Source of the DNA: a virus
Reading direction: 5' to 3' (one strand)
Length of the DNA stretch: 41,716 nucleotides
IMG/VR virus record: IMGVR_UViG_3300036823_000392
Coordinates: 1 to 41,716 of that record
Notes under the pieces: model-generated
The model's database searches: none
Seen by the model: only the letters and a program-made list of their open reading frames with translations
What the model was told of the DNA's origin: nothing
Position numbers and translations under genes: made by a program
Part shown: piece after piece, positions 11,059 through 39,751 of the stretch
Numbering within the stretch: the first letter of the stretch is position 1
How the letters are laid out: each line of letters opens with the position of its first letter

Positions 11059-11079
11059 CCAGATCCACAACTATTAGGC

Positions 11080-11280: not shown

Positions 11281-11319
11281 AATCTACCCCATTTGCTTGG
11301 TTTAGCTTGCAGATAAGTC

Positions 11320-11628: not shown

Positions 11629-11683
11629 TGAAAGCTCCTGACCTCTAGCGATAGCAGATAACCCGCGATCTCGCTATGGCTTT

Positions 11684-11920: not shown

Positions 11921-12231
11921 TGTTTCGTCCTTTCGGATGTTCCTGGGTACCCACCGACGGAGCATACATGTCGGTCGAACTCATCGGCCTTGTCGTAACA
12001 GCTCTTATCGATGGACTCGGGTCCGCATCGCGACTTTTGGAAGGCAACCATTTGTTCACAACTGTCTCGGAATTTAACTAGGCCCTCGTTGTACTGCTGC
12101 GTGAACCACCAGAAGGACGCGATCGCTACCAGAACGGCGACTAGAAGGGATAGTCTCTTCCAGCCTTCGCCACACGCAGGTGTAAGTCGCATGATGGCGA
12201 TTCTAAGCGTGTGAACGCCGTCCGCAATCAT
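11812..12231 (-). CDS. Two-helix membrane protein in the terS-terL cassette
   Basis: A 139-residue protein. TM1 is about residues 27-43 (LSLLVAVLVAIASFWWF) and TM2 about 112-130 (ALYSLGMAVIGLYLVRVTG). The 65-residue loop between them carries four cysteines (DSCEQM, SRCGPES, KSCYDK, RHVCSVGG), consistent with two disulfides in a periplasmic loop. ATG 12231 has GAGG four bases upstream and is preferred to 12279, which lies only two bases before the terL start on the other strand. Function unknown; accessory gene by position and orientation. Confidence 0.6.
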   Translation of the reverse strand: MIADGVHTLRIAIMRLTPACGEGWKRLSLLVAVLVAIASFWWFTQQYNEGLVKFRDSCEQMVAFQKSRCGPESIDKSCYDKADEFDRHVCSVGGYPGTSERTKQWSLRALYSLGMAVIGLYLVRVTGWIFAGFAKQAST

Positions 12232-12281
12232 TTTCCTCAAGGTCCGCCCATCTGGTGGGCCTTCGCATTTCCAGGACATAG

Positions 12282-13517: not shown

Positions 13518-13531
13518 TTTTGAGGATTTGA

Positions 13532-14965
13532 ATGGCAACGAAGCGGACCAAGAAATCTAAGAGATCCGCTCAGGCAGAGGATGCCTACAGCAATATTCCG
13601 GCCAGGCTTGGATTCGGTACCCCTTCTTTAACGGAAGGATCTGAATACCCGCTTACCCGGTTCAGTAACAACTACCAAGCGCTGCTCTCGCTTTATAGAG
13701 AGTCATGGCTGTGCAAAGCGATCGTCTCCATTCCCGCGCAGGACATGGTGAAGGCATGGCCGACGATCACCTCTGAGCTGACCCCGGACGATCTGAAGCA
13801 GTTCGATCGGACCCTGGCTCGCACCGGCACGAAGAAACAGATCCTGACCACTCTGCGCTGGGCCAGATTGTTCGGCGGAAGTGGTGCTCTTGTCTGTATT
13901 GACGGGCAAGAAGACATGCTCGATCAGCCCCTTGATCTGGATTCGATCGAGCTCGGCAGCTTCAAGGGCCTCATTCCGTTCGATCGCTGGTCTGGAATCA
14001 GCCCGACCATGGGCGTCTGCGCCGACATCACGCGGCCACTGCAGTTTGGTCTACCCGAGAGCTACCAGGTACACGGTCCGTCGACCAGTACATCGTTTCA
14101 GGTTCACGCAAGCCGGATCCTGCGGTTCACCGGCCCTGACATTCCTTCGCCCGAGTTCCAAGCCCAAAGTTACTGGGGCATCAGTTGCCTCGAGCCTGTC
14201 ATGGACCAGATCAAAATGGTCGATTCGGCGCTCTGGTCGATAGTGAACTTGCTGTTCCGCGCTCAGATCCTCTCCGAGGTCAATCCGGAGCTGGCTCAGA
14301 TGCTCTCCGGCGCGGGCGCTTCGCAGCAGGCAATGCGCAAGTTTCAGGAGAGGATGCAGGCCAAGAATCACCTGCTCTCCAATCAGGGACTCAACATCCT
14401 CGGTAAGGACGGCTCGCTTCAGTCGAACACGTACTCCTTCGGTGGTGTGGCAGAGGTCCTGCAACAGCTTCAGCTCTTTGTGAGCGGCGCTGCAGAGATC
14501 CCTGTTTCGATTCTCTACGGACGCACCATCTCCGGCCTCGGCCAAAGCAATGATGCTGATCTTCAGATTTATGAAGATCGCATCGCACAGACACAGAACG
14601 TTGACCTTCGCCCCGTCCTGGAGCAGCAGCTTTATCCAGTCATCTGTATGAGTGAATTCGGCGAAGTGCCGGAAGATCTGGACTTGGACTTCCCTTCCAT
14701 CCGCTCTCTGACCGGTAAGGAAAAGGTCGAGCTCATGAAGACCGGCTCCGATGCCATCTTCGCCGGCTATGACCGTGGCGTCTACGGACGCAAGTCCACA
14801 CTGACCGGTCTCAAGCGCCTTGGAGATCCCATTGGTGAGTACTCCTGGATCACACAGGCCCAGATCGACGCAGCCGATGACGACATTCACGAGCAAGGTG
14901 ACGTTCCCCCGCTTGAAGGTATGAATCGTGACGACTCCGCGTCCAGCCTGGAAGCCGCCTCGTAG
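13532..14965 (+). CDS. Portal protein (DUF1073 type)
   Basis: A 477-residue portal forming the dodecameric ring at the packaging vertex through which DNA enters and to which the neck attaches. It matches the DUF1073 portal family: an N-terminal 'LSLYRESWLCKAIVSIPAQDMVKAWP' segment, a central 'RILRFTG..IP' segment, and the region around ILYGRTISGLGQSNDADLQIYEDRI, where the clip and stem helices are expected, followed by 'LYPVICMSEFG' and 'TGKEKVELMKTG'. Length is typical. GAGGATT precedes the ATG. It sits between terL and the maturation protein, the standard order. Confidence 0.9.
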   Translation: MATKRTKKSKRSAQAEDAYSNIPARLGFGTPSLTEGSEYPLTRFSNNYQALLSLYRESWLCKAIVSIPAQDMVKAWPTITSELTPDDLKQFDRTLARTGTKKQILTTLRWARLFGGSGALVCIDGQEDMLDQPLDLDSIELGSFKGLIPFDRWSGISPTMGVCADITRPLQFGLPESYQVHGPSTSTSFQVHASRILRFTGPDIPSPEFQAQSYWGISCLEPVMDQIKMVDSALWSIVNLLFRAQILSEVNPELAQMLSGAGASQQAMRKFQERMQAKNHLLSNQGLNILGKDGSLQSNTYSFGGVAEVLQQLQLFVSGAAEIPVSILYGRTISGLGQSNDADLQIYEDRIAQTQNVDLRPVLEQQLYPVICMSEFGEVPEDLDLDFPSIRSLTGKEKVELMKTGSDAIFAGYDRGVYGRKSTLTGLKRLGDPIGEYSWITQAQIDAADDDIHEQGDVPPLEGMNRDDSASSLEAAS

Positions 14966-15015
14966 CGGATAGAGCAATCGTCCCCGGCATTCATTCAACT
15001 TTCAGGACCATAAGC

Positions 15016-16290
15016 ATGGACATCAGTTACTACGGCGTCGCCCTCAGCGACAACATCGCGAGGACCGACGAAGGCTATGTCATTTGTAAGGACGTAGTCA
15101 TAGGCCGCACAGGCTATCAGGAATACCCCGTCTCGCAGCTTTCGAAGTCTCAGCTCAGAGACCTGGGCCTGCTCGACCGCTTCAACGATCCGGATGAGAT
15201 TGTCCAGGTCTGGCGCGATCCTGATGAGGTTTTCGCTCCGGCGACGATCGCCTCTTTCGAGGGCAAGCCAGTAACGGACAACCATCCGAAGGAGTTCGTG
15301 GACGCCGATTCTCACGCTGAGCTTCAGCGCGGGCACGTTCAGCACATACGGCGTGGAGAAACGCCACTAAATTCGGGCGACATACCGAAGCTCGCCGACA
15401 TGATCATCACCGATCCCGACCTGGGGGAGGACGTTTTACAGCGCCGTAAGAGGGAGCTCTCCTGCGGTTACACATACAAGCTCGCCTGGGATGGCAATCG
15501 TCTTTCCCAGACACAAATCACTGGCAACCACGTAGCAGTCGTCCCAAAAGGCCGCGCGGGAGCCGAGGCGCGAATCAATGATTCCGCCGATATCCCGCAA
15601 CCCCAAAGGAAACAGAAGATGAAGATCAGAGACTGGTTCTTCAGCAAGGGCATCACTGCCATGGCTGAGGACAACGTTGAGCCGGAGCAGATCGCTGCTG
15701 CGGCAACCGCCTTCGCTAAGGACGAAGCTCCCGAGCAGAAGGAAGAGAAGGTCGAAGAGAAGAAAGCGGAAGACGCCGATCCTCTCGCAGAGGTCAAGGA
15801 TTCCCTGAAGGGTATCGCCGACGGCATGAAGTCTGTCTGCGACCGCCTGGACAAGCTGGAAAGCCCAGAGTCCGAGGAAGAGTCAGAGGACGAAGATCCG
15901 AAAGCCGACGAAGAGCCCGAGTCCGAAGAGGAAGAGGCCGAGTCGGAAGACGCAGATGAGGACGAGAAAGAGGAAGCAGAGGATAGCAAGGCCGAGGACG
16001 CGTTCATTGCGCCCGCCGCTTCTGAGTCGGATCTGATCAAGATCCTCAAGCCCCTGGTCGCCCGCTCGAATGATGCCCCGCTGAAAAAGGCGTTCAACGA
16101 GGCAATCGCGAAGGCGAATGACTCCGTGCGTGGTGGATCTCCCAAGGGTGCCTATGGCGCCGTGAAGTCTGCCGCTGAAAAGAAGTCCGCAGCAGCGAAT
16201 GATTCCCAAGATGCAAATGCCGCGTACATCGCGCGGCTCAACGAAAAAGCTCAGGCCGCCTGGAGTGGCCAGAATAAGGAAGTGAAGTAA
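15016..16290 (+). CDS. DUF2213 capsid maturation protein fused to a scaffold-like tail
   Basis: A 424-residue protein. Residues 1 to about 190 match DUF2213, a putative prohead protease family (NIARTDEGYVICKDVVIGRTG, ASFEGKPVTDNHP, QRGHVQHIRRG, KRELSCGYTYKL, QTQITGNHVAVVPKGRAGAEARI in order). The C-terminal half is helical and extremely acidic (about 282-331 are largely Glu, Asp and Ser), ending in Ala/Lys-rich helices, as in capsid scaffolds. An internal start at Met202 probably makes the scaffold separately. It should act in the prohead and be removed or cleaved during maturation. AGGA lies nine bases before the ATG. Confidence 0.85.
   Translation: MDISYYGVALSDNIARTDEGYVICKDVVIGRTGYQEYPVSQLSKSQLRDLGLLDRFNDPDEIVQVWRDPDEVFAPATIASFEGKPVTDNHPKEFVDADSHAELQRGHVQHIRRGETPLNSGDIPKLADMIITDPDLGEDVLQRRKRELSCGYTYKLAWDGNRLSQTQITGNHVAVVPKGRAGAEARINDSADIPQPQRKQKMKIRDWFFSKGITAMAEDNVEPEQIAAAATAFAKDEAPEQKEEKVEEKKAEDADPLAEVKDSLKGIADGMKSVCDRLDKLESPESEEESEDEDPKADEEPESEEEEAESEDADEDEKEEAEDSKAEDAFIAPAASESDLIKILKPLVARSNDAPLKKAFNEAIAKANDSVRGGSPKGAYGAVKSAAEKKSAAANDSQDANAAYIARLNEKAQAAWSGQNKEVK
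15619..16290 (+). CDS. Nested scaffolding protein from an internal start
   Basis: Inside the maturation gene, ATG 15619 is preceded by AAAGGAAA at six bases, a good ribosome-binding site that protein coding alone does not require. Translation from it would yield 223 residues (MKIRDWFFSKGITAMAED...) comprising the whole acidic, helical part without the DUF2213 domain. Separate in-frame scaffolds inside maturation protease genes are well established, for example in phage lambda. Expression here is inferred from the site and from the domain boundary falling just before it. Confidence 0.55.
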   Translation: MKIRDWFFSKGITAMAEDNVEPEQIAAAATAFAKDEAPEQKEEKVEEKKAEDADPLAEVKDSLKGIADGMKSVCDRLDKLESPESEEESEDEDPKADEEPESEEEEAESEDADEDEKEEAEDSKAEDAFIAPAASESDLIKILKPLVARSNDAPLKKAFNEAIAKANDSVRGGSPKGAYGAVKSAAEKKSAAANDSQDANAAYIARLNEKAQAAWSGQNKEVK

Positions 16291-16291
16291 T

Positions 16292-16855
16292 ATGGCCCCT
16301 TTCGGCGCAGTACTCTCCGTCACCGGTCTCCCGCTTGGGTTCCCTGGCCACGTCACCCGTGGCGGCGGAGCCCCCCAGAACATCTCCTCGAAGCAGGTGT
16401 TGACCACCGCAGCCAACCCGATTCAGTTCGGTCAGGCCGTGGTGATCAATGCGGCAACGAACTCGTACCAGTCGGTGGCGGATTTCATCGCCGGCGGCGG
16501 AACGATGACTGCGGCTCTGTTCGCCGGCATCGCGGTGGAAGAGATCAAGACGACCGGCTCGTTCCCCAGCACGCCCGGCCAGGAAGTCGTGGGCAGCTAC
16601 CCCCAGGGCGATTACGCTGACGCGCTTAACTTCGGCTCGATCATCGTGGCCGTCAACAACGGCACTCCGATTTCGCAGGCTCCCGTCTATCTGCGCATCG
16701 CTGCCAATGGAGCCGTTCCGAACGGCGTCATCGGCGGTCTGGAAGCAGGCAGCACGACCGGAACCATCGAACTCACCGGCGTCGTGTTCACCACTGGCTC
16801 GATGGACTCGAACAACTCCGCCGAGATCACCATGCTCAACCGCGTCGCGGCCTAA
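16292..16855 (+). CDS. Capsid cement/decoration-type protein
   Basis: A 187-residue, Gly/Ala/Thr-rich beta-type protein (VTRGGGAPQNISSKQVLTTA, FGQAVVINAATNSYQSVADF, LFAGIAVEEIKT, GDYADALNFGSIIVAVNN, APVYLRIAANGAVPNGVIGG). The pattern of short beta strands and the place between the maturation protein and the major capsid protein fit the phage structural cement (gp24-like) proteins that stabilise DUF2184-type capsids. It starts two bases after the previous stop. A different head decoration fold is possible. Confidence 0.75.
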   Translation: MAPFGAVLSVTGLPLGFPGHVTRGGGAPQNISSKQVLTTAANPIQFGQAVVINAATNSYQSVADFIAGGGTMTAALFAGIAVEEIKTTGSFPSTPGQEVVGSYPQGDYADALNFGSIIVAVNNGTPISQAPVYLRIAANGAVPNGVIGGLEAGSTTGTIELTGVVFTTGSMDSNNSAEITMLNRVAA

Positions 16856-19161: not shown

Positions 19162-19959
19162 ATGAAAAGAACACTCACCACAATCCTGGCTGTGATCCTC
19201 ACCAGCCTGCCGGCGTTCGCGCAAACCAAGGTCACCGGCGAGAAGATCGTCGATTCTACGGTCTCCACTTCGACGATCGATTCGACGCCAATCGGTAACA
19301 CCACCCGTAGCAGCGTATCCGCTACGTGGATGCTGTTCTCTGTGGCACCCCCTAACCCAATTCCCGGGAACTCCGTTGAAGTGGGCTGGGATGCAACGGG
19401 TCTAGGCGAAGCCGATTTCGTAGATGACTACGGCACAGCTGCCGGTGGATTCAATTGGTATGCGGTTGGCGGCTCTGGCTCCTCACACTCGTGGACCCCC
19501 AGCGCCTCCTTAATGCACCTGGACATCTCCGGGAACCTCACAGCGAATAAGTTCATCGGCTCCTTCTCCGGCAACGTAACAGGAAATCTGAACGGCAACG
19601 CGAGCACAGCTTCTGCGCTCGCTGCTGACCCCGCCAATTGCGGCTCCGGCCAGGTCGCAGTCGGAATCAACGCATCCGGAACTGCAACCTGTGTCAATGG
19701 TGTGCAGAGCGGAAGCGGACCTGGCGGAATGACGGGAAACGCTACGTACAGCGCCACAACAAGCACCGTTACTTTCTCTCCGGGTTATGGAGACGCCAAC
19801 TATCGGGCTGCCTGCACTCTGGTGGCTCCCAGTGATCCGCGAGCAGTCATCGTTGGAATCACCAACTTGGGCAACTCCAACCTCGTGGTTGAAGTCGCGA
19901 CGATGGGCTCGGTCTCAATCAGTTATTCCGGCATCGACTGTCTCCTCCAACACCCATGA
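19162..19959 (+). CDS. Signal-peptide-bearing fibre-like protein within the neck genes
   Basis: A 265-residue protein that starts with a textbook Sec signal peptide (MKRTLTTILAVILTSLPAFA, cleavage before Gln). The mature part has beta-rich, fibre-like sequence: FIGSFSGNVTGNLNGNASTA repeats, NCGSGQVAVGINASGTATC, GPGGMTGNATYS, and a C-terminal 'GYGDANYRAACTL' domain typical of short fibre heads. ATG 19162 follows the neck gene stop by two bases and its own stop overlaps the next neck gene (ATGA), so it is embedded in the late operon, not a host intruder with its own promoter. An exported protein is unexpected here. It could be a virion decoration, a secreted conversion protein or an adhesin. 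Confidence 0.75.
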   Translation: MKRTLTTILAVILTSLPAFAQTKVTGEKIVDSTVSTSTIDSTPIGNTTRSSVSATWMLFSVAPPNPIPGNSVEVGWDATGLGEADFVDDYGTAAGGFNWYAVGGSGSSHSWTPSASLMHLDISGNLTANKFIGSFSGNVTGNLNGNASTASALAADPANCGSGQVAVGINASGTATCVNGVQSGSGPGGMTGNATYSATTSTVTFSPGYGDANYRAACTLVAPSDPRAVIVGITNLGNSNLVVEVATMGSVSISYSGIDCLLQHP

Positions 19960-28381: not shown

Positions 28382-28408
28382 GGCTCGCCATCGGCGGGCC
28401 TTTTCTAT
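28382..28408 (+). terminator. Rho-independent-like terminator before baseplate J
   Basis: GGCTCGCC (28382-28389), loop ATC, GGCGGGCC (28393-28400), then TTTTCTATT. One G-U pair in the stem. The next gene's ribosome-binding site follows within 12 bases, so partial termination that lowers downstream expression is likely. Confidence 0.6.
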
Positions 28409-28419
28409 TGCAGGGATTT

Positions 28420-29598
28420 ATGGCATACGCAGCTCCGACAATCACGGCGGCGGGACTCACTGTCCCCGGACTCACGGACATCCTGCAGTTCTACCTGGAT
28501 GGCTTTCAGTCCATCTACGGAAGCACCACATATCAGCAGGCGGACGACAAGGATTACCAGCAGATCACGGCATTCGCCATGAAGGTGAACGACGTGATGC
28601 AGGCCGTCCAGCTTGCTTATAACGCCAGATCCCCCATTACGGCAGTCGGAGCAGATCTAGATTCCATCGTGAAGCTGAACGGTTTGGTGCGCGGCGGCGC
28701 CACCAACTCCACCTGCCCCCTCGTTCTCTCGGGATCCGCAGGAGCGGTGATCGCCAACGGTGTCATCAATGATCCGGTGGGGAACGCTTGGGCGCTTCCG
28801 GCTTCCGTAACTATCGGCCCGGGCGGCACTGCAACGGCCACGGCCACCTGTGCGACGGCAGGTCCAATCGCAGCAGTCGAGGGAACGATCACATCGATCG
28901 CTACCCCGACGGCGGGCTGGGTATCGGTCACCAATGCTGTGCCGGCGACGCTCGGCGAACTTGCCGAGACCGATTCACAGCTCCGCGCACAGCAATCGGT
29001 ATCGGTGGCTCTGCCCTCGATGACGATGCTGCAGGCAACTATTGCTGCGATTGCGGCGACGACAGGCGTCACTCGCTACACCATCGATGAGAATCCCACG
29101 GGCGCGGTGAACGCAAACGGAAACCCGGCTCACTCAATCACTGCGGTGGTCGAGGGCGGTGCTGACGCTGACGTAGCGCAAGCGATCTATTCGAAGCGCG
29201 GTATCGGCTGCTTTACCAACGGCACAACGACGGTGAGTGTGAACGATACAGTGAACGGGACAACGCTCCCGATCTCATTCGATCGACCGACGTACATCCC
29301 GATTTTCGTGACCATGACGGTTCACGGCTTGAACGGCTTTACGTCAACGACGGTGACGGCGATCCAGACGGCCATCGTGGCTTACCTCAACTCGCTGCAA
29401 ATCGGAGAAGAGGTCACTTATTCCGCCATGTACGGAGCGGCACTCTCAGTGATGTCCGATCTTTCGCTTCCGCAGTTCTCGATCAAGTCGGTCGCTATTG
29501 GCGAGGCAGCGAGCCCGACCGGTACGAGCGATATCACTCTCAACTTCAACCAGGTTGCACAGGGCGTCACCGGCAACGTAATCATCACGAGCGTGTAA
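28420..29598 (+). CDS. Baseplate J protein
   Basis: A 392-residue wedge protein of the baseplate J family. The N-terminus (LTDILQFYLDGFQSIYGS..YQQADDKDYQQITAFAMKVNDVMQAVQLAYNARSP) and 'GADLDSIVKLNGLVR' are typical, followed by a Thr/Ala-rich inserted beta domain (VLSGSAGAVIANGVINDPVGNAWALPASVTIG), 'ETDSQLRAQQSVS', 'GVTRYTIDENPTG' and a C-terminal 'YIPIFVTMTVHGLNGF..AIQTAIVAYLNSLQIGEEVTYSAM'. ATG 28420 with AGGGA is preferred to the TTG at 28408. Confidence 0.9.
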   Translation: MAYAAPTITAAGLTVPGLTDILQFYLDGFQSIYGSTTYQQADDKDYQQITAFAMKVNDVMQAVQLAYNARSPITAVGADLDSIVKLNGLVRGGATNSTCPLVLSGSAGAVIANGVINDPVGNAWALPASVTIGPGGTATATATCATAGPIAAVEGTITSIATPTAGWVSVTNAVPATLGELAETDSQLRAQQSVSVALPSMTMLQATIAAIAATTGVTRYTIDENPTGAVNANGNPAHSITAVVEGGADADVAQAIYSKRGIGCFTNGTTTVSVNDTVNGTTLPISFDRPTYIPIFVTMTVHGLNGFTSTTVTAIQTAIVAYLNSLQIGEEVTYSAMYGAALSVMSDLSLPQFSIKSVAIGEAASPTGTSDITLNFNQVAQGVTGNVIITSV

Positions 29599-29600
29599 CC

Positions 29601-30236
29601 ATGCCAGATACAAGTGAAGGATTTGGCATCGGCGGATTCGGTGTGGGATCGTTCGGTGGAGAGCCTGTAGAAAATCTCCCGATCAGTTACTACCTCAGCC
29701 TGATCACCAGCGAGTACCAGGGCTCTCCGAAGTTCCTGCGGTGGCTCAGCATTTTGCTTCAGCCGCTGGACGACGCGAGCCAATGCCTTGAAAGCATGAC
29801 GCTGGCATTCGACCTGGACCAGGCTGTAGGTGTGCAGCTCGACACCTTGGGCATAATCATCGGCCAGAGCAGAGTGATGACGTTCCAGCCGAGCGATGGG
29901 GTCAGCCCCATCCTGGATGACACGACCTATCGGATGTTGCTTCGAGCGCGTATCGCCCGCAATCAATGGGACGGAACGATCGACTCGCTCCAATCGACTT
30001 GGCAGACGCTGTTCCCCGGCGGATCGATCAGCATAGAAGATGCACAAAATATGAGCGCCACGATTGTGCTCTCCGGCGCGTTCACAAGCGTTGCTCAAGA
30101 TTTGATCAACAACGATCTCATCGTTCCACGTCCCGAGGGCGTGCTCTACCAGTACACATTCGGATCTCTCCCGGTTTTCGGATTCGGCCCGGTCACTTCG
30201 GTGATTGCTGGCTGGGGTGTCGGTAAGTGGACGTAA
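29601..30236 (+). CDS. Baseplate protein (DUF2612)
   Basis: A 211-residue protein of the DUF2612 family that links wedges to fibres. It starts GFGIGGFGVGSFG, then YYLSLITSEYQGSPKFLRWLS, 'LDQAVGVQLDTLGIIIGQSR' (the usual 'A.G..LD.lG.l.G..R') and 'LDDTTYRMLLRARIARNQWDGTIDSL' (the usual 'd+.yR.ll++ki..n.wdGt'). It follows baseplate J by two bases. Confidence 0.9.
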   Translation: MPDTSEGFGIGGFGVGSFGGEPVENLPISYYLSLITSEYQGSPKFLRWLSILLQPLDDASQCLESMTLAFDLDQAVGVQLDTLGIIIGQSRVMTFQPSDGVSPILDDTTYRMLLRARIARNQWDGTIDSLQSTWQTLFPGGSISIEDAQNMSATIVLSGAFTSVAQDLINNDLIVPRPEGVLYQYTFGSLPVFGFGPVTSVIAGWGVGKWT

Positions 30237-30260: not shown

Positions 30261-30290
30261 AAAGGCTCCTGACGGGGCCTTTTGTATTTC
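30261..30290 (+). terminator. Rho-independent-like terminator before the fibre genes
   Basis: AAAGGCTCC, loop TGAC, GGGGCCTTT is a nine-pair stem (one G-U) followed by TGTATTTC. It separates the baseplate genes from the fibre module at 30303. Confidence 0.6.
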
Positions 30291-30302: not shown

Positions 30303-30875
30303 ATGGCAGGCTCAACAAACTTTCAGGTGTTCGACCCCGAGGCAGAGAACATGCTCACGGATGCGGCGTACACCGACGACCCCACTCGCAGCGGCGGGGC
30401 GGTCGATGGTGAAGTGTTCGATGCGGAGACAGCGAACAAGCTGTTCTATCAGCTATCCACTGGGCTCACGGCTCTCATGCTCGCGATGGCTGCGAAGGGC
30501 TTTGTCACAAGCGACGCGAATCTGAACCAGCTCGTCACTGTCCTGTCGAACATCCTAACGACCGCCGATCAGAAGGCGCAGCTCCAGGTGGTGTCGTTCG
30601 GAGCTTCGCTCACATTCGATTGCTCGCAGGCGAACGGCTTCCAAGTCACGCTCGGCGGCAACGTCACAAGCTCGGTCGTTGAGAATGCTGCGCCAGGGCA
30701 GATCGTGACCTTCGTCCTGATTCAAGACGGCACCGGTGGCCACACCTTTGCGTGGCCTGCATCGATGACCGGCACCGCACCGATCGACGGCACCCCAAAC
30801 ATCACCAACATCCAGCAGTTCATCGCCCGCAACGACGGCACGCTCCGTCCGATCTCCGCTCTCGCGGCCAACTAG
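30303..30875 (+). CDS. Tail fibre-associated protein
   Basis: A 190-residue protein with no signal peptide. The N-terminal half (FQVFDPEAENMLTDAAYTDDP..SGGAVDGEVFDAETANKLFYQLSTGLTALMLAMAAKGF) resembles N-terminal virion-attachment regions of short tail fibres in related phages. The C-terminal half (LTFDCSQANGFQVTLGGNVTSSVVENAAPGQIVTFVLIQDGTGGHTFAWP..) is a beta domain seen at the tips of many phage fibres ('G+.v+f.l.qD.tGg.t.+wP'). It could attach the following fibres to the baseplate or bind receptors itself. Confidence 0.75.
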   Translation: MAGSTNFQVFDPEAENMLTDAAYTDDPTRSGGAVDGEVFDAETANKLFYQLSTGLTALMLAMAAKGFVTSDANLNQLVTVLSNILTTADQKAQLQVVSFGASLTFDCSQANGFQVTLGGNVTSSVVENAAPGQIVTFVLIQDGTGGHTFAWPASMTGTAPIDGTPNITNIQQFIARNDGTLRPISALAAN

Positions 30876-30916: not shown

Positions 30917-33565
30917 ATGAAGATACTCCGTACCATTCTGGTGCTCGCGATAGCGTGCGTGTCGTTCTCTGCCTTTGCTCAGACTGTGACGCCTAACGCA
31001 GCTCTTCAACTGCCCGCGTACCAGCAACAGAACTGGCAGGTTCCGCTCCTGTTCGACATGGCGCGGATCGATAACATCTTCGGCGGCACGGTGCCGATTC
31101 CGTCGATCACTCTGTCTGGTGCGATCACGAATGCGAACCAGGCCGTGACGAAGGCATATGTCGATGCGACCGCAGTCGGATTCCTGAGCGCCAGCGGTGC
31201 GACCATGACCGGTCCGCTCGTCTTGGCTGCCGATCCCACAGCACCGTTGCAAGCTGCGACGAAGCAGTATGTCGATAATGCTGTTGCTTCTGGCGGCGGT
31301 ACAGGCTCTCTGACAGCGACCGCGATTAACACTGCGCTTGGCTACACCGCCCAGAGCGCAGCGAATGTCTCAGCGGCGATCGCAGCAGAGATGACGGCCA
31401 CTCCTTCGTACACCACCGTCACGCTGACGGGCGCTATCACCAGTTCCACCCAGGCCGCGACGAAGGCTTATGTGGATGCGGCTATTGCAGGCGTCAGTGC
31501 GTCCACTTTCACCGGTGGTACGCTCACGCAGACTCTGATCCTGGCAGCCAACCCGACCACCAATCTCGGCGCGGCCACAAAGCAGTACGTTGACGCTGCC
31601 GTGGTCGGCTTCCTGTCTCAGTCAGGTGGAACCCTCTCCGGTCCGCTCACTTTGAGCGACGGCACTCTCGCTGCGTCTGAGGCCTACGTTGCGTCCGCTG
31701 TATCAGGACTCAGCGGTGGCGGCACAACCAATCAGCAGCTCGACCAGAAGGTCACTTCGGCATCGAGCTGGAACAAAATCTGCACGGCAGCCGGAACCCC
31801 CTCCGGCACCGTTGCTTGCGCTGGCGTGCAGGGTAACCCAATCGCAGTCAATGTTGCGACCAAGCAGGCCTCGCCCGTCCTGAACACCGTCGGTGTCACC
31901 AACGCTGTTGCAACTTACGGCCTCTCGGTCAACTCCTCCACCAATACGCAGATCCTCGTTCCAACCACGGTAGGCACGAATTACGCGGCCACCGTATTTA
32001 AGCGCGAGATGTGGTTTACCGGCGGAACGAACCTAAACGGTGTCGACAATTTTGAAACCGACACCTACATGTTCGACCTGCCTGACCAGTGGGAATTCAT
32101 GATGGGGTGGCAGTGCCGCCGCAATGCCGCGAGTCCCAATACCGGTTCGGATTTTTGGCAATATGACAATTTCAAGGGCGGGTGGAAGAACTCTGCCGTC
32201 CCTTGCTCGATCATAGCGGGCCACGTCTACCACTACATCCTGATGATGCACCGCGATCTTGCGTCGAGCACTGCTTGCTCGGGAACGGGAGCGGATGCTT
32301 CAGTCACTGCAGGACCTTGCGAGCACTGGGATACGTTCAAGCTCGATGATCTGACGGCGAGTACAACGAACACCTACACGCTGAATCTGACCTATGTCGC
32401 CGAACCGGCCAGCCTGGGAGGCTGGCAGACATGGACCGGCATCGGATCGCAGGTTCAGCTTGACGTTATCGATTCGTCCACCGGCGGCACGACCACACCT
32501 GTCTCGATGATCGTCGATGATGACAGCTTGACCACCTACGTCCCGGTCACTTCATCCGGGGGTGGATCAACCTCAGTCACGGAGACCACAGGCAACCTGG
32601 GTGAATACGATTTTGATGGAGCGAGTCCGACCAGTGGTCTGACCGCTACCGGCTCACCTACGATCGACACCACAAACTCCTACAGCTCCCCGAATGCTGT
32701 TTTGTTCAATGCGGCCAACGAGTATTACACAGCGCCGATCACTTCCTCATCGACAGTCTTTGCCCGTGCAGAAGTGAACGTCACCACCGCTCCCACTACG
32801 AGCAGCACGCAGTTTCTTGGTCTTTACAACGGATCTTCCCAACTGATTAACCTGTTCTTCAATTCAGTGGATGGTCTGATTAAAGCCAATAACACGGCGG
32901 GCACAAATACCGTCACCACGTGCTCCGCGTCGGGGCTTACTCCAGGAACATGGCATCGTGTGGAACTGGCATGGACCCAGAACGCCACATCAGGGTCTTT
33001 CCAGGTACTTATCGACGGAACTTCGACTTGTAACGTCACTGGGGTGACTACTGGTTCACTGCCTGCGACCTCAGTACATTTCGGTGAGATGGGTGCACCC
33101 AGCCCGGCATGGGTATTCGACCTGGATAACGTGGGCTTTAGCTCCACGGGTCTATTGGGCGCAGTCACGATCAATTCCGGCTCAACGAATCCTCTTTACG
33201 ATCTATATGGAAGCGCGGCAGCAGTGCAAATTGCTGATCAGGAGTATTCCTCTAATGCTTCTCACCTGAGCAGTGGCACGATACCTCCCAGCGTATTCCC
33301 TGCGATCATCCCTGGCTCTGTGGGCGCGGCGATCGCATCCGCTTCGACCATTGCTCCTGTCGCATCTCTTACCCACATCACAGGCACGACGAGTATCTCG
33401 ACGATCACGCCTCCGTACTCCGGATTCACGGGCTGCCTGGTTCTCATCGCGGATGGCGGGTGGCCCATGACTACGGGCGGCAACATCATGAACGCATTCA
33501 CGGCGACGACGGGCACGATGTACCGCGCATGTGATGACGGCACTAACGGCTGGTACGTGAAGTAA
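30917..33565 (+). CDS. Large tail-fibre-like protein with signal peptide and lectin domains
   Basis: An 882-residue protein with a Sec signal peptide (MKILRTILVLAIACVSFSAFA, cleavage before Gln). From about 70 to 260 there are fibre repeats: TKAYVDA or TKQYVDN near 76, 113, 181 and 219, alternating with 'GFLSASGATMTGPLVL'. From about 370 to 545 a beta domain (FETDTYMFDLPDQWEFMMGW, HWDTFKLDDL, WTGIGSQVQLDVID) looks like a carbohydrate-binding jelly roll. A LamG/concanavalin-like domain follows (YDFDGASPTSGL, FLGLYNGSSQLINLFF, WHRVELAWTQ, VHFGEMG) at about 563-750, then a C-terminal fibre tip (HLSSGTIPPSVFP...TGTMYRACDDGTNGWYV). It should bind cell-surface glycans. ATG 30917 has AGGAA seven bases before it, so the frame opening at 30752 is rejected. 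Confidence 0.8.
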   Translation: MKILRTILVLAIACVSFSAFAQTVTPNAALQLPAYQQQNWQVPLLFDMARIDNIFGGTVPIPSITLSGAITNANQAVTKAYVDATAVGFLSASGATMTGPLVLAADPTAPLQAATKQYVDNAVASGGGTGSLTATAINTALGYTAQSAANVSAAIAAEMTATPSYTTVTLTGAITSSTQAATKAYVDAAIAGVSASTFTGGTLTQTLILAANPTTNLGAATKQYVDAAVVGFLSQSGGTLSGPLTLSDGTLAASEAYVASAVSGLSGGGTTNQQLDQKVTSASSWNKICTAAGTPSGTVACAGVQGNPIAVNVATKQASPVLNTVGVTNAVATYGLSVNSSTNTQILVPTTVGTNYAATVFKREMWFTGGTNLNGVDNFETDTYMFDLPDQWEFMMGWQCRRNAASPNTGSDFWQYDNFKGGWKNSAVPCSIIAGHVYHYILMMHRDLASSTACSGTGADASVTAGPCEHWDTFKLDDLTASTTNTYTLNLTYVAEPASLGGWQTWTGIGSQVQLDVIDSSTGGTTTPVSMIVDDDSLTTYVPVTSSGGGSTSVTETTGNLGEYDFDGASPTSGLTATGSPTIDTTNSYSSPNAVLFNAANEYYTAPITSSSTVFARAEVNVTTAPTTSSTQFLGLYNGSSQLINLFFNSVDGLIKANNTAGTNTVTTCSASGLTPGTWHRVELAWTQNATSGSFQVLIDGTSTCNVTGVTTGSLPATSVHFGEMGAPSPAWVFDLDNVGFSSTGLLGAVTINSGSTNPLYDLYGSAAAVQIADQEYSSNASHLSSGTIPPSVFPAIIPGSVGAAIASASTIAPVASLTHITGTTSISTITPPYSGFTGCLVLIADGGWPMTTGGNIMNAFTATTGTMYRACDDGTNGWYVK

Positions 33566-33591
33566 GCCGAACTTCTCAACACATCATCAAT

Positions 33592-33620
33592 GGGCTGCCA
33601 TCGCGCAGCCCTTTCCTTTT
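33592..33620 (+). terminator. Rho-independent-like terminator between fibre genes
   Basis: GGGCTGC (33592-33598), loop CATCGC, GCAGCCC (33605-33611), then TTTCCTTTT. The next ribosome-binding site (GGAG) is 11 bases on, as at the other intercistronic hairpins. Confidence 0.6.
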
Positions 33621-33631
33621 CGGAGTTCAAA

Positions 33632-35710
33632 TTGAAATCTCTCCTCACCATCATCGCGATGGCATGCCTCTCTGTGTCCGCCGCATTCGGTCAGACCACC
33701 ACAATGGTGGCGTCTAATTTACAGAGCGACCTGACCGGCTCTAATAAGTTCACAGGTCGCATCTGCATTACGCCAATGCTGGCGGATCGCGCGACGGGTT
33801 TCAGCGCCGACGGCGCGGCTCAGGTAATGCCCGTTCGTACGTGCTACCCGATCGATGCGGGAATTTTGAACGCCGTCGTTCCAAATACCAGTCTGGCCAA
33901 TCCTCCGATCGGCCTGCAAACGGTCATCCAGGACGCGAACGGCTTTAACGTATATCAGTACCCTCAGCTTCTGTTCACTACGGCAGAGCCACTCGATCTC
34001 GATTCGTACGCGCCGACGCAGACCGTGAAGGTGACGACTCCGACCTTCAACTTCTCGACTTCAGCTCCTGTGGGTGATTGTGGAAGCGCTCCTGCGGAGG
34101 ACTACACCGGCAGCGTCACGGATGTCTCGGTTTACTACTGCATAGCTCATCAGTGGGCATTGCAGACTGGGACGGGTGGCCCCGGCTCGGTCGGTCCTCA
34201 GGGTCCGGCTGGTGCAACGGGAGCTACAGGACCACAAGGTCAGGCAGGATCTGCTGGCGCAACTGGAGCAACCGGCGCGACCGGGAACACTGGCCCCACA
34301 GGTCCCACAGGCGCGACCGGACCCTCTGGCACAGCCGGCAATGCGGCTGGTGATGTAACAGGCCCATACACGGCCCTGGTGGTCGCAAGGATCAACGGCC
34401 AGACTCCAGGCAACATCGTCACTCACAACGCGGCGGACTTCGATATTGCTGGCGCTGCTGCAACTGCACAGAGCAATTCAGAAACCTACACGAACACGCA
34501 GATCGCTGGCGTCAGTGGCGGCGGATCGAATCCGATCGGCGCTGCTGGTGGAGACCTGTCCGGCACCTATCCGAATCCCAATGTCGCAAAGATCAACGGT
34601 CACACCCCTGCAACCGTAGCCACGTCCGGCAGCTACACGGATCTGATCAACCTGCCGACCATTCCTGCTGCTCAAGTGCAGTCCGACTGGACTGCGGTCA
34701 CCGGCCTGGGAGTCATCCTCGATAAGCCGACGCTCGGTACTGCTGCCGCTCAGAACACATCAGCATTCGACGCGTCAGGGGCTGCCTCTACGGCAGAGAC
34801 AGCAGCGAAGGGATACGCAGATACCCTGGCATCGAACTATGACGCCACAGGGGAAGCAGCGGCTGCTGAGACGGCTTCCAAGAGCTACGCTGACTCCCTG
34901 GCTACGAACTACGACACGGCAGGGACTTCATCTGCTGCGATCGCAGCTCTGCCTGCTGTAGCGCGGAGCGGCAGCTATACCGACCTTACGAGCAAACCTA
35001 CTCTCGGGACGGCAGCAGCTCAGGCATCGACTGCGTTCGACGCGGCTGGTGCGGCCAGCTCAGCACAGACAGCAGCAGAGGCCGCGAGCGATCCTTCGGG
35101 ATCCGCCTCGACGGCGCTATCAAGTGCAGAGACGTTCTCTGCGAATGCTTCAAACATCAGCTCAGGGACTTTGAATCACGCTCGTCTCCCGACACTGGTG
35201 AGCGCAGACATTCCGAACAATGCTGCTTCTACGAGCAGCACGGCAGCGAACTTGTCAGGGACACCAGCACTGCCTAACGGCACCACGGCGACCACGCAGA
35301 CGGCTGGCGATAACTCGACGAAGCTCGCGACGACAGCTTATGTAGCGACCGCGGTCTCTGGCCTGGGTGGCGGATCTTCAAACACGATCACCGGCAGCGG
35401 GCTGACGACTGGCGACATCTACGCGAGTGTCTCCGGTACGCTCACGCTCGCCGAGGGCAACACCAGCACCTTACAGACCAGCCCTGCGATCTGCCTTGCC
35501 ACCTCGGCGACAGCTTGCCAGTTCGGCGGCGTATGGACGACCACCGGCCTCACGGCTGGCGCGGTGTACTACGTCTCCGACACAACCTCAGGCGCGATCA
35601 CAGCTACCGAGCCGACCACGAGCGGTCATTACGTTCAGCGTGTGGGCGTAGCGATCTCCACGACCCAGCTCCTGCTCATCCCGAGCCTGGACGTTGCAGG
35701 TATTCAGTAA
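33632..35710 (+). CDS. Collagen-repeat tail fibre with signal peptide
   Basis: A 692-residue protein beginning at TTG 33632 (GGAG six bases upstream). The N-terminus is a Sec signal peptide (KSLLTIIAMACLSVSAAFG, cleavage before Gln). A beta domain (about 25-180, including GRICITPMLADRATGF, VPNTSLANPPIGLQTVIQDANGF, DVSVYYCIAHQWAL) is followed by a collagen-like stretch of Gly-X-Y triplets rich in GAT, GPT and GPQ at about 183-239. Next come fibre repeats (SYTDLINLPTIP; LGTAAAQNTSAFDASGAAST and LGTAAAQASTAFDAAGAASS) and a C-terminal head ('GNTSTLQTSPAICLA', 'TGLTAGAVYYVSDTTSGAITATEP', 'YVQRVGVAIS'). Repeats of the 'Y+DL..kPTLGTAAA' type are a hallmark of phage tail fibres. Its stop overlaps the next ATG. 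Confidence 0.8.
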   Translation: MKSLLTIIAMACLSVSAAFGQTTTMVASNLQSDLTGSNKFTGRICITPMLADRATGFSADGAAQVMPVRTCYPIDAGILNAVVPNTSLANPPIGLQTVIQDANGFNVYQYPQLLFTTAEPLDLDSYAPTQTVKVTTPTFNFSTSAPVGDCGSAPAEDYTGSVTDVSVYYCIAHQWALQTGTGGPGSVGPQGPAGATGATGPQGQAGSAGATGATGATGNTGPTGPTGATGPSGTAGNAAGDVTGPYTALVVARINGQTPGNIVTHNAADFDIAGAAATAQSNSETYTNTQIAGVSGGGSNPIGAAGGDLSGTYPNPNVAKINGHTPATVATSGSYTDLINLPTIPAAQVQSDWTAVTGLGVILDKPTLGTAAAQNTSAFDASGAASTAETAAKGYADTLASNYDATGEAAAAETASKSYADSLATNYDTAGTSSAAIAALPAVARSGSYTDLTSKPTLGTAAAQASTAFDAAGAASSAQTAAEAASDPSGSASTALSSAETFSANASNISSGTLNHARLPTLVSADIPNNAASTSSTAANLSGTPALPNGTTATTQTAGDNSTKLATTAYVATAVSGLGGGSSNTITGSGLTTGDIYASVSGTLTLAEGNTSTLQTSPAICLATSATACQFGGVWTTTGLTAGAVYYVSDTTSGAITATEPTTSGHYVQRVGVAISTTQLLLIPSLDVAGIQ

Positions 35711-38223
35711 TGAAGACGTTCCTCTCTCTGATCCTGTTCCTCACTACGGCGGCGGCGTTCGCACAGAATACGCCGTCTGTGGTGCAGAGCAAGACCACAG
35801 GCGCGACTTCTACTTCCACGATCGCGTTCACATCCGCTGTCACGGCAGGGAACGCGCTCTATATCGCGATATTCGACGGAAACAGCAAGGGCGACACTGA
35901 TACCTTCACCGATTCGCTCGGCAACTCATACACGACTGTCAGCACCGTGAACCTCAACACCGACGGCGACACTATGGCCCTCGGTTGCGCGGTGGCCAGC
36001 TCGTCAGGCTCGGACACGATCACGATTAAGGTCAACGGCACGGCGAACACGGCCTGGGCCACGATCTACGAGGTCGCGAACTCGACATGCACGACAGACG
36101 TAACTCCGGCGACTAGCAACACGACCGCGAAAACGAGCTGCAATAGCACCGCGATCACGACGGTCACGGCGAAAGACTTCCTGTTCGGCTTCTGCGGCCT
36201 GACTAAGGAACCGACCACCCTGACTGCCGGCTCTGGATGGTCTAACAGTCTGCTCGTCGGCGCCAGCGGCGGCAATGGCGGCATCGGAGAGATCCAGATC
36301 GGCACCACTGCCGGAAGCTACACAGCGACCAGTGCAACGTTCTCACCGAGCAGCGAACAGGCCTCGATCATCGCCGCGTTCAAGGCCACAGCTTCTAGCC
36401 CTGCGGCTGGTTTCTCACCAACAGCGCTGTCCTTCGGGAATCAGAACACTCACTCGACCAGCACCGGCCAGACCGTCACCCTGACGAACACAGGCTCGGC
36501 ATCGATGACGGTGACCTCGATCGCGTTATCCACCGGCACACAATTCGCGATCTCGTCGAACACCTGCGGATCAACCCTCACCGCTGGCAGCAACTGCGTC
36601 GTGACTGTGACCTTCACGCCTACCAGCACCGGCGTGAAGACAGACAACGTCCTATTTACTGACAACGCGACAGGCAACCCTCAGGACGTAGCTCTGAGCG
36701 GCACCGGTACCGCGCCGGCTGTAGCGACCTTAGACACAAAGACAATCGGCGGACTGTCCGGAAACATCAGCAAGCTCAACGCGATCGGCCTGGGTACTGC
36801 GACCGGCAACATCTCAAGCTGGAATGGCCTGTTTTTTCCCCCCACCGGAGTGTTGACGATCGCGCTCGACACTCCGAGCTGCTCGTCGGCATCTACTAGC
36901 TGCACGCTCACCAGCGTGACGGCGGGCGACTTCATCGACTGCCATTACTTTGTCTATGCCTTTGCGCCACCAGCGCTCTATATCTCTGACTCGGTGAACG
37001 GCGCTTACTATCCCACGTTCTTTGAGCAAGTCGCTTCCAATGAGATCGCTGGCGAATATGTGATGCCGAACTCTGCATCCGGCACGATCACGCCGACGGC
37101 CACGTCCAACACCTTCCCCGATGGCGGGATCTCCTGCCAGACCTATAAGAACATCAACTCGACCGCGTTCACAGACCCCGCAATCGGACAGGTGAGCACC
37201 GGCACATCGACGAATCCGACCTCTGGATCGGCGCAGACTCCGACCGCAGCGAAAGAGCTGATCTCCGGATTCATGGGGAACCTGTCGGTGACGCCGACCG
37301 CTGGAACGAACTACACACGGATCGGCAACGTCGCTCTACCTGATAGCCTGCAAAATCTCTGGCCAGAATATTGGATTCAGACCACGGCTACGGCGACGAA
37401 TAGCCCATACACAGCGGCATCCGATACATGGGAGGACTTCACCACTGCCTTCATGCCCGCTGGACAAGCTGGTGGCGTCATTCCCTTCGGCGGAAACTAT
37501 ACCGATCTCGCTGGTGAGACGAACGGAACAACCGTCAGCGCGACCAACTTGGCTACAGGTGGCAAGTCGGCGTTCCCCGGAGGCTGGGGCGGAACCTTTG
37601 GCGGCGGCGTCTACAACACGACCGTTTCTCCGCCCAGCCGCACGCATTCGATCTGGACTAGTGGCAAGAACAGCACCTCGAATACGGGCGTCGCGATAGA
37701 CCACATCTCGACAGCGACAGAATCCTTCAATTGGGACACGATCCAAGCTGGGCCATCGACTGAAGCTCCGTCGCTTTCGTTCTTCTTCAAGACAACGTAC
37801 ACGGCGAACTCGGTCGGCAACCTCTGCGACTTCGCGCAGATCTCTGGTGCGAGTGGCGGTGACGGTGTGAACCTGCAGGTTGGTTATGACGCCACTGCGC
37901 ATCTTGCGATGCACATGGAAGTCACCAACGGCACGACGCAAGTCAGCCCTTGGATAGGCAGCCTGTCACCGAACACTTGGTACTGGGTGACGATGCAGCT
38001 GGCTCACAGCGGCAATCACGAACTCACTGTATATGGCTTTTCGGGCGGCTCATGGTCACTCATCGGAACCTCTACTTTTCCGGTGACAACGCCACCGAGT
38101 ACGAACATCAACTTCCAGGTAGGCAATCAAGGCTCCTGCGGCGATCCATCTGGAACTCACGTTTACTACGCGGACATCCAGATGGACCCCTGGGGTCAAG
38201 CTGGTTTCCCTGTACTGCCTTAA
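35710..38223 (+). CDS. Exported ASH-domain, lectin-like fibre or adhesin
   Basis: An 837-residue protein with a Sec signal peptide (MKTFLSLILFLTTAAAFA, cleavage before Gln) and ATG overlapping the preceding stop (TAATG). Residues about 25-225 form a beta domain (VQSKTTGATSTSTIAFTSAV, GNALYIAIFDGNSKGDTDTF, DFLFGFCGL). About 231-335 is an ASH / choice-of-anchor D domain (FSPTALSFGNQNTHSTSTGQ, TVTLTNTGSASMTVTSIAL, GSNCVVTVTFTPTSTGVKTD, DVALSGTGT), very common in secreted acidobacterial proteins. The last 230 residues look concanavalin-like (FPGGWGGTFGGG, LSFFFKTTYTANSVGNLC, WYWVTMQLAHSGNHELTVYG). A host-type module within a phage fibre operon suggests domain capture. It could be a receptor-binding fibre or a secreted adhesin. 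Confidence 0.75.
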   Translation: MKTFLSLILFLTTAAAFAQNTPSVVQSKTTGATSTSTIAFTSAVTAGNALYIAIFDGNSKGDTDTFTDSLGNSYTTVSTVNLNTDGDTMALGCAVASSSGSDTITIKVNGTANTAWATIYEVANSTCTTDVTPATSNTTAKTSCNSTAITTVTAKDFLFGFCGLTKEPTTLTAGSGWSNSLLVGASGGNGGIGEIQIGTTAGSYTATSATFSPSSEQASIIAAFKATASSPAAGFSPTALSFGNQNTHSTSTGQTVTLTNTGSASMTVTSIALSTGTQFAISSNTCGSTLTAGSNCVVTVTFTPTSTGVKTDNVLFTDNATGNPQDVALSGTGTAPAVATLDTKTIGGLSGNISKLNAIGLGTATGNISSWNGLFFPPTGVLTIALDTPSCSSASTSCTLTSVTAGDFIDCHYFVYAFAPPALYISDSVNGAYYPTFFEQVASNEIAGEYVMPNSASGTITPTATSNTFPDGGISCQTYKNINSTAFTDPAIGQVSTGTSTNPTSGSAQTPTAAKELISGFMGNLSVTPTAGTNYTRIGNVALPDSLQNLWPEYWIQTTATATNSPYTAASDTWEDFTTAFMPAGQAGGVIPFGGNYTDLAGETNGTTVSATNLATGGKSAFPGGWGGTFGGGVYNTTVSPPSRTHSIWTSGKNSTSNTGVAIDHISTATESFNWDTIQAGPSTEAPSLSFFFKTTYTANSVGNLCDFAQISGASGGDGVNLQVGYDATAHLAMHMEVTNGTTQVSPWIGSLSPNTWYWVTMQLAHSGNHELTVYGFSGGSWSLIGTSTFPVTTPPSTNINFQVGNQGSCGDPSGTHVYYADIQMDPWGQAGFPVLP

Positions 38224-38261
38224 CTCTCACCAGTGGCCGCCATTCGAGCAGCCGTTCTATC

Positions 38262-38363
38262 GCAACCGGCTCCAGCGGAACGAGCTACAACGTCGGCGTC
38301 CGCACGATGCGAGCGAGCGGCACAACGTCGGCATGGGCGACCGGTACAGGATCCGCCTCGTAA
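38262..38363 (+). pseudogene. Fragment of a fibronectin-III-like fibre C-terminus
   Basis: After the ASH-domain gene, a reading frame without a start codon encodes ATGSSGTSYNVGVRTMRASG then TTSAWATGTGSAS and stops at 38363. The pattern 'Y.V.VR......GtSaW..gtgsas' is the last two strands and tail of a fibronectin type III domain as found at ends of phage fibres. It looks like the stump left after the previous fibre gene was replaced. Confidence 0.5.
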
Positions 38364-38389
38364 GAACTGATTTCACTACACAGGGACCA

Positions 38390-38719
38390 ATGACTCCAGA
38401 ACTGATAGAAGCATCGGCCGCGGTCGCGACGCTGCTCGGCGCGGTAATCACATGGCTCTGGCGGACGGCTTCTTCCGTCACCAAAGCGCATACCACTCTT
38501 GCGATCTTTACGTCGGATGTTCAGGCGCTCAAGACAGATACCAGAGAGCTGAGGGATAACCACATCCGTGCTGATGGCGCCATCGCGAACATGGCGAATC
38601 AACTCGCCAAGCTGGACAAGATCGACACTCTGATCACATCCGTCGCAACGCTAACGGCCATCGTGGAACGCCTGGAGCGTCGAGTCGATCGCAGACCAGA
38701 TGAGGATTCCCGTCCATGA
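38390..38719 (+). CDS. Membrane-anchored coiled-coil lysis-cassette protein
   Basis: A 109-residue protein. One N-terminal membrane segment (IEASAAVATLLGAVITWLW, about 6-24) is followed by a long heptad-rich helix (FTSDVQALKTDTRELRDNHI, MANQLAKLDKIDTLITSVAT, LTAIVERLERRVDRR). The ATG of the endolysin overlaps its stop (ATGA). Single-span, coiled-coil proteins in this position serve as holin-like, spanin-like or endolysin-partner proteins; which one cannot be told. ATG 38390 has AGGGA five bases upstream. Confidence 0.65.
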   Translation: MTPELIEASAAVATLLGAVITWLWRTASSVTKAHTTLAIFTSDVQALKTDTRELRDNHIRADGAIANMANQLAKLDKIDTLITSVATLTAIVERLERRVDRRPDEDSRP

Positions 38720-39159
38720 TCCATAAACTTCAACCCTCGCAAGCATGCCTGGATCTGATTAAACGGTTCGAGTCATGCCGGCTGACGGGCTACAAAGACG
38801 CGAACGGCTTCCCGACGATCGGATGGGGTCATAAGCTCGGCCCGCATGAAACCTTCGTCAAAGGGATCTCCCAGGGCACAGCAGACTATCTGCTGCGCTG
38901 CGACGCGCAGGTCGCAGCGAACGACGTGAACTCCTACGTCACGCAGCAGCTCTCACAGAACCAGTTCGATGGAATGACGAGCTGGACATTCAATCTCGGC
39001 GGCGAGCGTCTCCGGGAATCAACTCTGCTGACCTACCTCAATGCAAATCGGATTCTGGACGCAGCTAACGAGCTCCTCAAGTGGGATCACGCTGGCGGGA
39101 AGGTCAGTGATGGCCTGGAGACACGGAGAGAAGCGGAGAGGGAGCTATTCCTGAGTTAG
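38716..39159 (+). CDS. Endolysin, GH24 lysozyme (muramidase)
   Basis: A 147-residue muramidase that cleaves the glycan strands of peptidoglycan at lysis. The catalytic signature Glu-8aa-Asp-5aa-Thr is complete: Glu19 (KRFES), Asp28 (YKDANG) and Thr34 (PTIGWGH). Other family motifs are QNQFDGMTSWTFNLG (usual 'q.qfdAL.Sf.fN.G') and GLETRREAERELFL at the C-terminus (usual 'GL..RR..E..l+'). No signal or SAR anchor is present, so release should need a holin. It is coupled to the preceding membrane protein. Confidence 0.95.
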   Translation: MIHKLQPSQACLDLIKRFESCRLTGYKDANGFPTIGWGHKLGPHETFVKGISQGTADYLLRCDAQVAANDVNSYVTQQLSQNQFDGMTSWTFNLGGERLRESTLLTYLNANRILDAANELLKWDHAGGKVSDGLETRREAERELFLS

Positions 39160-39205: not shown

Positions 39206-39751
39206 TCACATGCCATTTTCAAGGCCCCACACGGCGAGCGGAAGCGGAAAATCTTTTGACCCGTAGAAGTAGAAAAACTTCCCATTTTTCTTCATAAGTG
39301 CCCCAAACGCATGGCTATCTTTGTTCAAAGCCCATGCGGCCGCGTCAGTGTCACAGCTTCCGGTCATGCACCCTTTGCCAACAATCCAACCATCTTCGGT
39401 TTCGGTTACAGGCAGCGCAGTCGTGAAGCGCGCAGCGAAATCTGACCAGTCCTTCTGTAACGAGGCTGGTAACTTTTCTTTAGCCCGAAAAATCGTGTCG
39501 GATAGCGGAGTAGGGTCGCAAGGAGCAGGCTGCCATTTTTGAGTGTCTGATAGACACCACCCCTGAGATTCAATCTCAAGTAAGATGGCGTCACGAAACC
39601 TGCAGGCTTGTTGATCACCTCCCTTGCAGGCATCGTTTTGCATTTCCCAACTCATTATGTAGGCTGCCACGGTTTGCGTCGGCTTGACTGATTCCTGAGC
39701 TTGAGCAATTCCGGCAGTGAGCAACAAGACCAGTAACACAAGTTTCTTCAT
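39206..39751 (-). CDS. Exported protein of unknown function
   Basis: A 181-residue protein with a signal peptide (MKKLVLLVLLLTAGIAQA, cleavage before Gln). The mature part has six or more cysteines in a pattern suited to disulfides (NDACKGGDQQACRFRD, GWCLSDTQKWQPAPCDP, GKGCMTGSCDTDAAAW) and ends GKFFYFYGSKDFPLPLAVWGLENG. The ATG at 39751 has GAGG eight bases before it and gives the signal peptide a normal N-terminus. It is convergent with the endolysin. Function unknown; an accessory gene after the lysis cassette is a common place for lysogenic-conversion genes. Confidence 0.75.
   Translation of the reverse strand: MKKLVLLVLLLTAGIAQAQESVKPTQTVAAYIMSWEMQNDACKGGDQQACRFRDAILLEIESQGWCLSDTQKWQPAPCDPTPLSDTIFRAKEKLPASLQKDWSDFAARFTTALPVTETEDGWIVGKGCMTGSCDTDAAAWALNKDSHAFGALMKKNGKFFYFYGSKDFPLPLAVWGLENGM

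Follow-up and report, generated by a model that had tools for sequence, protein, structure and literature searches.

Predicted Sec signal peptides on tail-fibre-type proteins of a myovirus-like contig and of cultured Tunturiibacter phages

Introduction

In the textbook view, tailed phages are assembled entirely in the cytoplasm, and tail fibres and tailspikes are usually both made and assembled there without signal peptides. Familiar examples include CBA120 TSP4, the Klebsiella K1-specific depolymerase, lambda Stf and the fibres of T4. Signal peptides do occur in other phage proteins. Lambda encodes Lom and Bor, which are small outer-membrane proteins made with Sec signals, and the filamentous phages (Inovirus) make the virion proteins pIII and pVIII with cleavable signals, pIII carrying disulfides, and are assembled at the membrane and extruded without lysis. 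To our knowledge, no assembly route has been described in which an exported fibre attaches to a cytosolic virion, and a search of open-access full text found no precedent for Sec signals on the tail fibres of tailed phages.

Here we describe a 41,716-base IMG/VR virus record (the window, meaning the whole stretch that was analysed), a myovirus-like contig that encodes a contractile-tailed phage. Its fibre genes resemble those of the tailed phages named above in genome position and in the pairing of a conserved N terminus with a variable enzymatic or binding C terminus; collagen and fibre repeats are also shared, and a K1-lyase_C or beta-helix domain is present in relatives of the window proteins. 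They differ from CBA120 TSP4, the K1 depolymerase, lambda Stf and the T4 fibres in having predicted Sec signals and paired cysteines. The signals recall those of Lom and Bor, but the window proteins are long, of fibre type, and encoded in the virion operon. In contrast to the filamentous phages, the phage of the window is tailed, with a lysozyme and cytosolic capsids.

Results

The late region of the window runs from a major head protein (position 16879) through a tail sheath (21002) and a lytic tail protein (23378) to the baseplate, where a baseplate J-type protein matching phrog_6 (28408 to 29598) and a DUF2612 baseplate/structural protein (29601 to 30236) are encoded, both on the plus strand and both without a signal. 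These are followed by a conserved 190-amino-acid protein (30303 to 30875, plus strand), also without a signal and with a weak tail-fibre PHROG match, a homologue of which precedes the fibre cassette in almost every related locus spanning the region; we propose it as a candidate cytosolic base of the fibre. At the far end of the cassette lie a small protein with a hydrophobic segment (38390 to 38719, plus strand), a candidate holin or lysis protein judging from its position next to the lysozyme, and a signal-less endolysin (38716 to 39159, plus strand; Phage_lysozyme, PF00959, Pfam E value of 3.4e-35). The 190-amino-acid protein and three signal-bearing fibre genes thus occupy the space between baseplate and lysis genes, and no other large receptor-binding candidate was seen there. 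Given this position, their domains and the lack of another large candidate in the window, the signal-bearing proteins are likely to be the receptor-binding proteins of the phage.

The initial annotation had placed Sec signal peptides at the starts of these three genes, and each is present there with an n-region, h-region, c-region and consensus cleavage site. Fibre 1 (882 amino acids; 30917 to 33565, plus strand) has an ATG start preceded by AGGA and a predicted signal, MKILRTILVLAIACVSFSAFA, at 30917 to 30979; the mature protein would start with the Gln encoded at 30980, in the sequence QTV. Its mature part has 10 cysteines and opens with a TPN domain (TPNAALQLPAYQQQNWQVPLLFDMARIDNIFGG), followed by TKAYVDA/TKQYVDN repeats, and its PHROG match is a phage hyaluronidase tail protein. 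A homologue in the related contig L002 (11205 to 13832) is also signal-bearing, while searching viral contigs directly with fibre 1 gave no matches. Fibre 2 (692 amino acids; 33632 to 35710, plus strand) begins at a TTG preceded by CGGAG, with a predicted signal at 33632 to 33691 (MKSLLTIIAMACLSVSAAFG, then QTT); SYTDL..PTLGTAAAQ repeats and collagen Gly-X-Y (Pfam Collagen, E value of 1.5e-6) make up a mature part with six cysteines. The L002 homologue of fibre 2 (13844 to 16573) has a signal and an ATG at the equivalent codon. Protein 3, of fibre type (837 amino acids; 35710 to 38223, plus strand), starts at an ATG that overlaps the fibre 2 stop codon as TAATG, with a predicted signal at 35710 to 35763 (MKTFLSLILFLTTAAAFA, then QNT), an ASH/HYDIN-type Ig-like domain and 12 mature cysteines. 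The ribosome-binding sites and the TAATG overlap on which the initial annotation had based these starts were likewise found.

The fibre hallmarks that had been listed for these proteins stood in part. The TKAYVDA repeats of protein 1 and the SYTDL..PTLGTAAAQ repeats and collagen of protein 2 are there, and protein 2 and its relatives match tail-fibre PHROGs, while fibre-family similarity is weak for proteins 1 and 3. The lectin-like domains were not borne out, the window proteins having no Pfam lectin match; an AlphaFold model of the candidate domain, built from the single sequence of fibre 1 residues 560 to 762, had a pLDDT of 49 and was discarded.

A fourth signal-bearing protein (265 amino acids; 19162 to 19959, plus strand; predicted signal MKRTLTTILAVILTSLPAFA at 19162 to 19221, then QTK) has fibre-like repeats and four mature cysteines. 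Its gene is part of the head-tail completion operon, separated from one neighbour by 2 bases and overlapping the other by 4, and homologues in two related records (L097, in the L002 record, and L098, in G018) are both signal-bearing, with six cysteines each.

Scanning of the fibre region with the sigma-70 consensus gave no promoter-like site above chance, and terminator counts did not exceed those of shuffled sequences. Terminator-like hairpins occur at 33592 to 33611, just upstream of fibre gene 2, and at 30261 to 30282, upstream of the 190-amino-acid base gene. Two minus-strand genes elsewhere in the window also encode proteins with signals. Past the lysozyme gene, a small protein (39206 to 39751) with a clean signal (MKKLVLLVLLLTAGIAQA, then QES) and no Pfam match is possibly an exported moron expressed during lysogeny, and in the early/lysogeny region a 166-amino-acid protein (5115 to 5615) begins with a signal peptide (MKLVVAALILTFAGTAAAQ).

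Signals were called by a strict rule of our own rather than by SignalP, with consensus cleavage sites of [AGS]-x-[AGS] before Gln noted. When calibrated on lambda, the rule picked Lom, Bor, Rz1, Rz and RexB, each either exported or a membrane protein, and none of the fibres. No spike or fibre of crAss001, Cellulophaga phi38:1, ShakeNBake or Bacteroides B40-8 passed, and the single passing protein among the Flavobacterium 11b late proteins tested was one of 154 amino acids, encoded after the endolysin and lipoprotein-like in appearance. By the same rule, four of 27 late-operon genes in the window passed, namely those at 30917, 33632, 35710 and 19162. This count, together with the absence of any lambda fibre and the small number of other cultured-phage proteins that pass, indicates that the window signals are not due to chance. 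Myxococcus phage Mx8 (L095) encodes two proteins with strong signal peptides, Mx8p64 (36781 to 37854) and Mx8p66 (38169 to 38822), the latter with seven mature cysteines.

Related loci were sought with the DUF2612 protein as anchor (15 loci) and with the N-terminal domain (73 loci), and the trait is present in dozens of IMG/VR contigs. The TPN domain (TPNxGLQxPxxNQxNWQVPxNxxxxLLDxIFGG) occurs in two settings. In long proteins, of about 300 to 2,500 amino acids, it is preceded by a signal peptide; those missed by the strict rule (L003, L023/L024, L027 and L067/L068) have a signal by looser rules, or by eye for L023/L024. Where the protein is small (126 to 135 amino acids), the domain begins at the initiator Met, none of the 31 aligned sequences has a signal, and there are no cysteines or only one. 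One phage family thus uses the same domain with and without a signal according to the type of protein. Homologues that start downstream of the hydrophobic segment, which the initial annotation had said would refute its reading if they were consistent, were found only as these separate small adaptors, and the long fibre homologues keep the signal.

Among 39 loci (not deduplicated) in which the gene following the small adaptor could be read, its product has a signal by rule in 34, or in 37 counting three more judged by eye, and the mature protein typically starts with Q-x-INPxTQINWPxxTGxGxP. Two fibres after an adaptor, L047 (8399 to 11155) and L045 (8395 to 10458), failed the strict rule with signal-like N termini; that of L047 reads GGC before Q, perhaps a lipoprotein-type site. 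Among the 31 small adaptors, 11 matched phrog_2710 and six matched phrog_18673, both tail fibre. The adaptor profile matched residues 134 to 171 of a K1-capsule depolymerase in the PDB (E value of 8e-4), and an AlphaFold model built from the 31 sequences has a C-terminal beta domain with a pLDDT near 90. The top Foldseek match of this model in the PDB was the N-terminal part of CBA120 TSP4 (7rfv; probability 1.00, E value of 3.8e-3, TM score by query of 0.43, 64 columns), and BFVD gave 64 hits at E values of 1e-3 or lower, many of them tailspikes. The model thus gives modest support for a tailspike anchor-domain fold of the CBA120 TSP4 N-terminal type in the C-terminal domain of the adaptor. 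Gene order suggests that the adaptor binds the fibre encoded downstream. We take the adaptor to be, probably, the anchoring part of a split fibre, remaining in the cytosol and joining the virion. The window phage has no separate small adaptor of this kind (A3 type).

The relatives have domains of the kinds usually seen in fibres that bind receptors or act as depolymerases. A signal-bearing TPN fibre (L038) carries a tailspike K1-lyase_C domain, L002 has a beta-helix domain, L060 a weak carbohydrate-binding module, one family member an arabinofuranosidase domain, and Tunturi_5 gp342 a GDSL lipase with laminin-G. Directly after the fibre gene in L033, a signal-bearing protein (10624 to 15183) contains a full GH10 domain (E value of 3.4e-41) and three CHB_HEX_C_1 domains.

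The same signal-bearing fibre cassettes as in the window are found in cultured phages of Tunturiibacter (Acidobacteriota). Tunturi_1, Tunturi_4 and Tunturi_5 represent three morphotypes (podovirus, siphovirus and jumbo myovirus), with stocks of 10^8 to 10^9 PFU per ml (PMC11924767). Signals were called by rule at the annotated starts of Tunturi_1 gp12, gp13, gp14 (annotated as a tail spike), gp16 and gp17, of Tunturi_4 gp113 and gp114, and of Tunturi_5 gp337 to gp342 without a gap; few other proteins of these phages pass. Tunturi_5 gp337 aligns with residues 1 to 121 of window protein 1, signal included, and from its similarity to Tunturi_5 the window may be from an acidobacterial phage. Scans of genome contigs with baseplate J and with the TPN alignment found no host-genome relatives. 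The fibres of Tunturi_3 and Tunturi_5 gp28 and gp29 have no signal; export is therefore not obligatory, and the trait appears to be common rather than universal. In its main text, the Tunturi paper reports no virion proteomics, the terms tail fiber, mass spectrometry, structural protein and SDS-PAGE do not appear, and no statement on export was found there (PMC11924767).

If the signals are active, folding of the mature proteins would take place in an oxidising compartment, and few cysteines should be left unpaired. An even number of cysteines was found in 49 of 52 mature signal-bearing proteins with at least four (35 of 38 clustered IMG/VR fibres and 14 of 14 from the Tunturi phages and the window), versus 29 of 56 annotated proteins that lack a signal in the same Tunturi phages (Fisher, 4e-7). 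Cysteine density per 100 amino acids was 1.7 in the signal-bearing proteins versus 0.9 in the non-signal Tunturi control. A first control made of contig open reading frames turned out to include missed fibres and spurious open reading frames and was replaced by the annotated Tunturi proteins. The first choice of cut site gave 33 of 41 even and a preference for cutting before Gln gave 36 of 39 (two weak cases also dropped); this preference was fixed after the first count, and the 14 of 14 in the Tunturi phages and the window is independent of it. The cysteine pattern is the strongest support for real export, and these sequences make it very probable that the proteins do enter an oxidising compartment.

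Discussion

We hypothesize, and hold it somewhat more probable than all other readings together, that these fibres and spikes carry cleavable Sec/SPI signals, acquire their fold and disulfides in the periplasm, and attach to tails at lysis. During late expression the proteins would be exported to the periplasm and mature there, while virions in the cytosol would by then have a fibre base or adaptor that lacks a signal. Once the holin opened the cytoplasmic membrane, these virions would meet the periplasmic fibres, docking at that moment being the simplest route by which an exported fibre could reach a cytosolic virion. The signals, operon position, fibre domains, cysteine pairing, adaptor fold and recurrence in cultured phages are seen in the sequences; cleavage, periplasmic folding, presence in the virion and the timing of attachment are what we infer.

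Passage through the periplasm was one of three options offered by the initial annotation, and it is the one favoured by the late-operon position, the tail-fibre and tailspike domain matches, the domain shared with signal-less virion adaptors, the even cysteine counts, and the recurrence in cultured phages of three morphotypes. The second option, secreted surface proteins, has become the main rival: the proteins may be free or surface-bound adhesins or depolymerases, made late and exported without becoming virion parts, which would serve as decoys, mask receptors, block superinfection or, as enzymes, degrade matrix and so aid the spread of progeny. True signals and paired cysteines would suit any exported protein, and the GH10 (L033), arabinofuranosidase, GDSL lipase (Tunturi_5 gp342) and ASH domains would suit free enzymes. 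However, the genes belong to the virion operon, with baseplate genes on one side and lysis genes on the other, the proteins contain fibre repeats (one relative also has the C-terminal domain of a tailspike), the signal-bearing fibres come after a tailspike-anchor-like adaptor, and the window phage would otherwise lack an evident receptor-binding protein. We put the chance that the proteins are free in this way at about one in four. The third option, capture of host secreted genes with intact signals as morons, draws on the match of the ASH/choice-of-anchor-D-type domain of protein 3 to bacterial proteins, and some distal domains (GH10, arabinofuranosidase, GDSL lipase and ASH) may indeed come from host secreted proteins. 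As the whole explanation simple capture is unsupported, since the proteins with signals have a phage domain at the N terminus and a gene order in common, and we rate it as very improbable: the TPN and INPxTQINWP N termini are the same across many phages and morphotypes, and the genes overlap virion genes head to tail (TAATG) within the late operon, with no promoter-like site in the fibre region by the sigma-70 scan and no sign of an independent transcription unit.

The hydrophobic N terminus might instead be a structural plug or membrane anchor on a fibre assembled in the cytoplasm, with no signal cleaved. Docking on the tail is the normal role of the N-terminal segment of a fibre, and cleavage here is a prediction; yet the [AGS]-x-[AGS] consensus before Gln is kept while the sequence of the segment varies between families, and a reducing cytoplasm would not select for even cysteine counts in 49 of 52 mature proteins, so that we consider a plug or anchor very doubtful. 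Hydrophobic starts arising by chance, or wrongly chosen start codons, for which the one TTG start might speak, have next to no probability: the starts have ribosome-binding sites, L002 has an ATG at the equivalent position, and this reading is refuted by the recurrence of the signals, both in dozens of contigs and, in cultured phages, at annotated start codons.

Periplasmic maturation followed by docking at lysis, if correct, could amount to a second assembly route for tailed phages, common in those of Acidobacteriota, in which Sec-exported, disulfide-matured fibres join pre-assembled cytosolic virions through a split fibre with a cytosolic anchor and an exported distal part; we see the chances of this broader proposal as even. 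Fibre export, disulfide bonding and addition at lysis would then be a new step of morphogenesis and would explain the origin of cysteine-stabilised fibres in some phages, and the fibres could act outside the cell before lysis, in receptor masking or matrix degradation. It would also mean that a fibre gene with a signal peptide is not to be dismissed as misannotated. Because cultured hosts and phages exist (Tunturi_1, 4 and 5), the question is directly testable.
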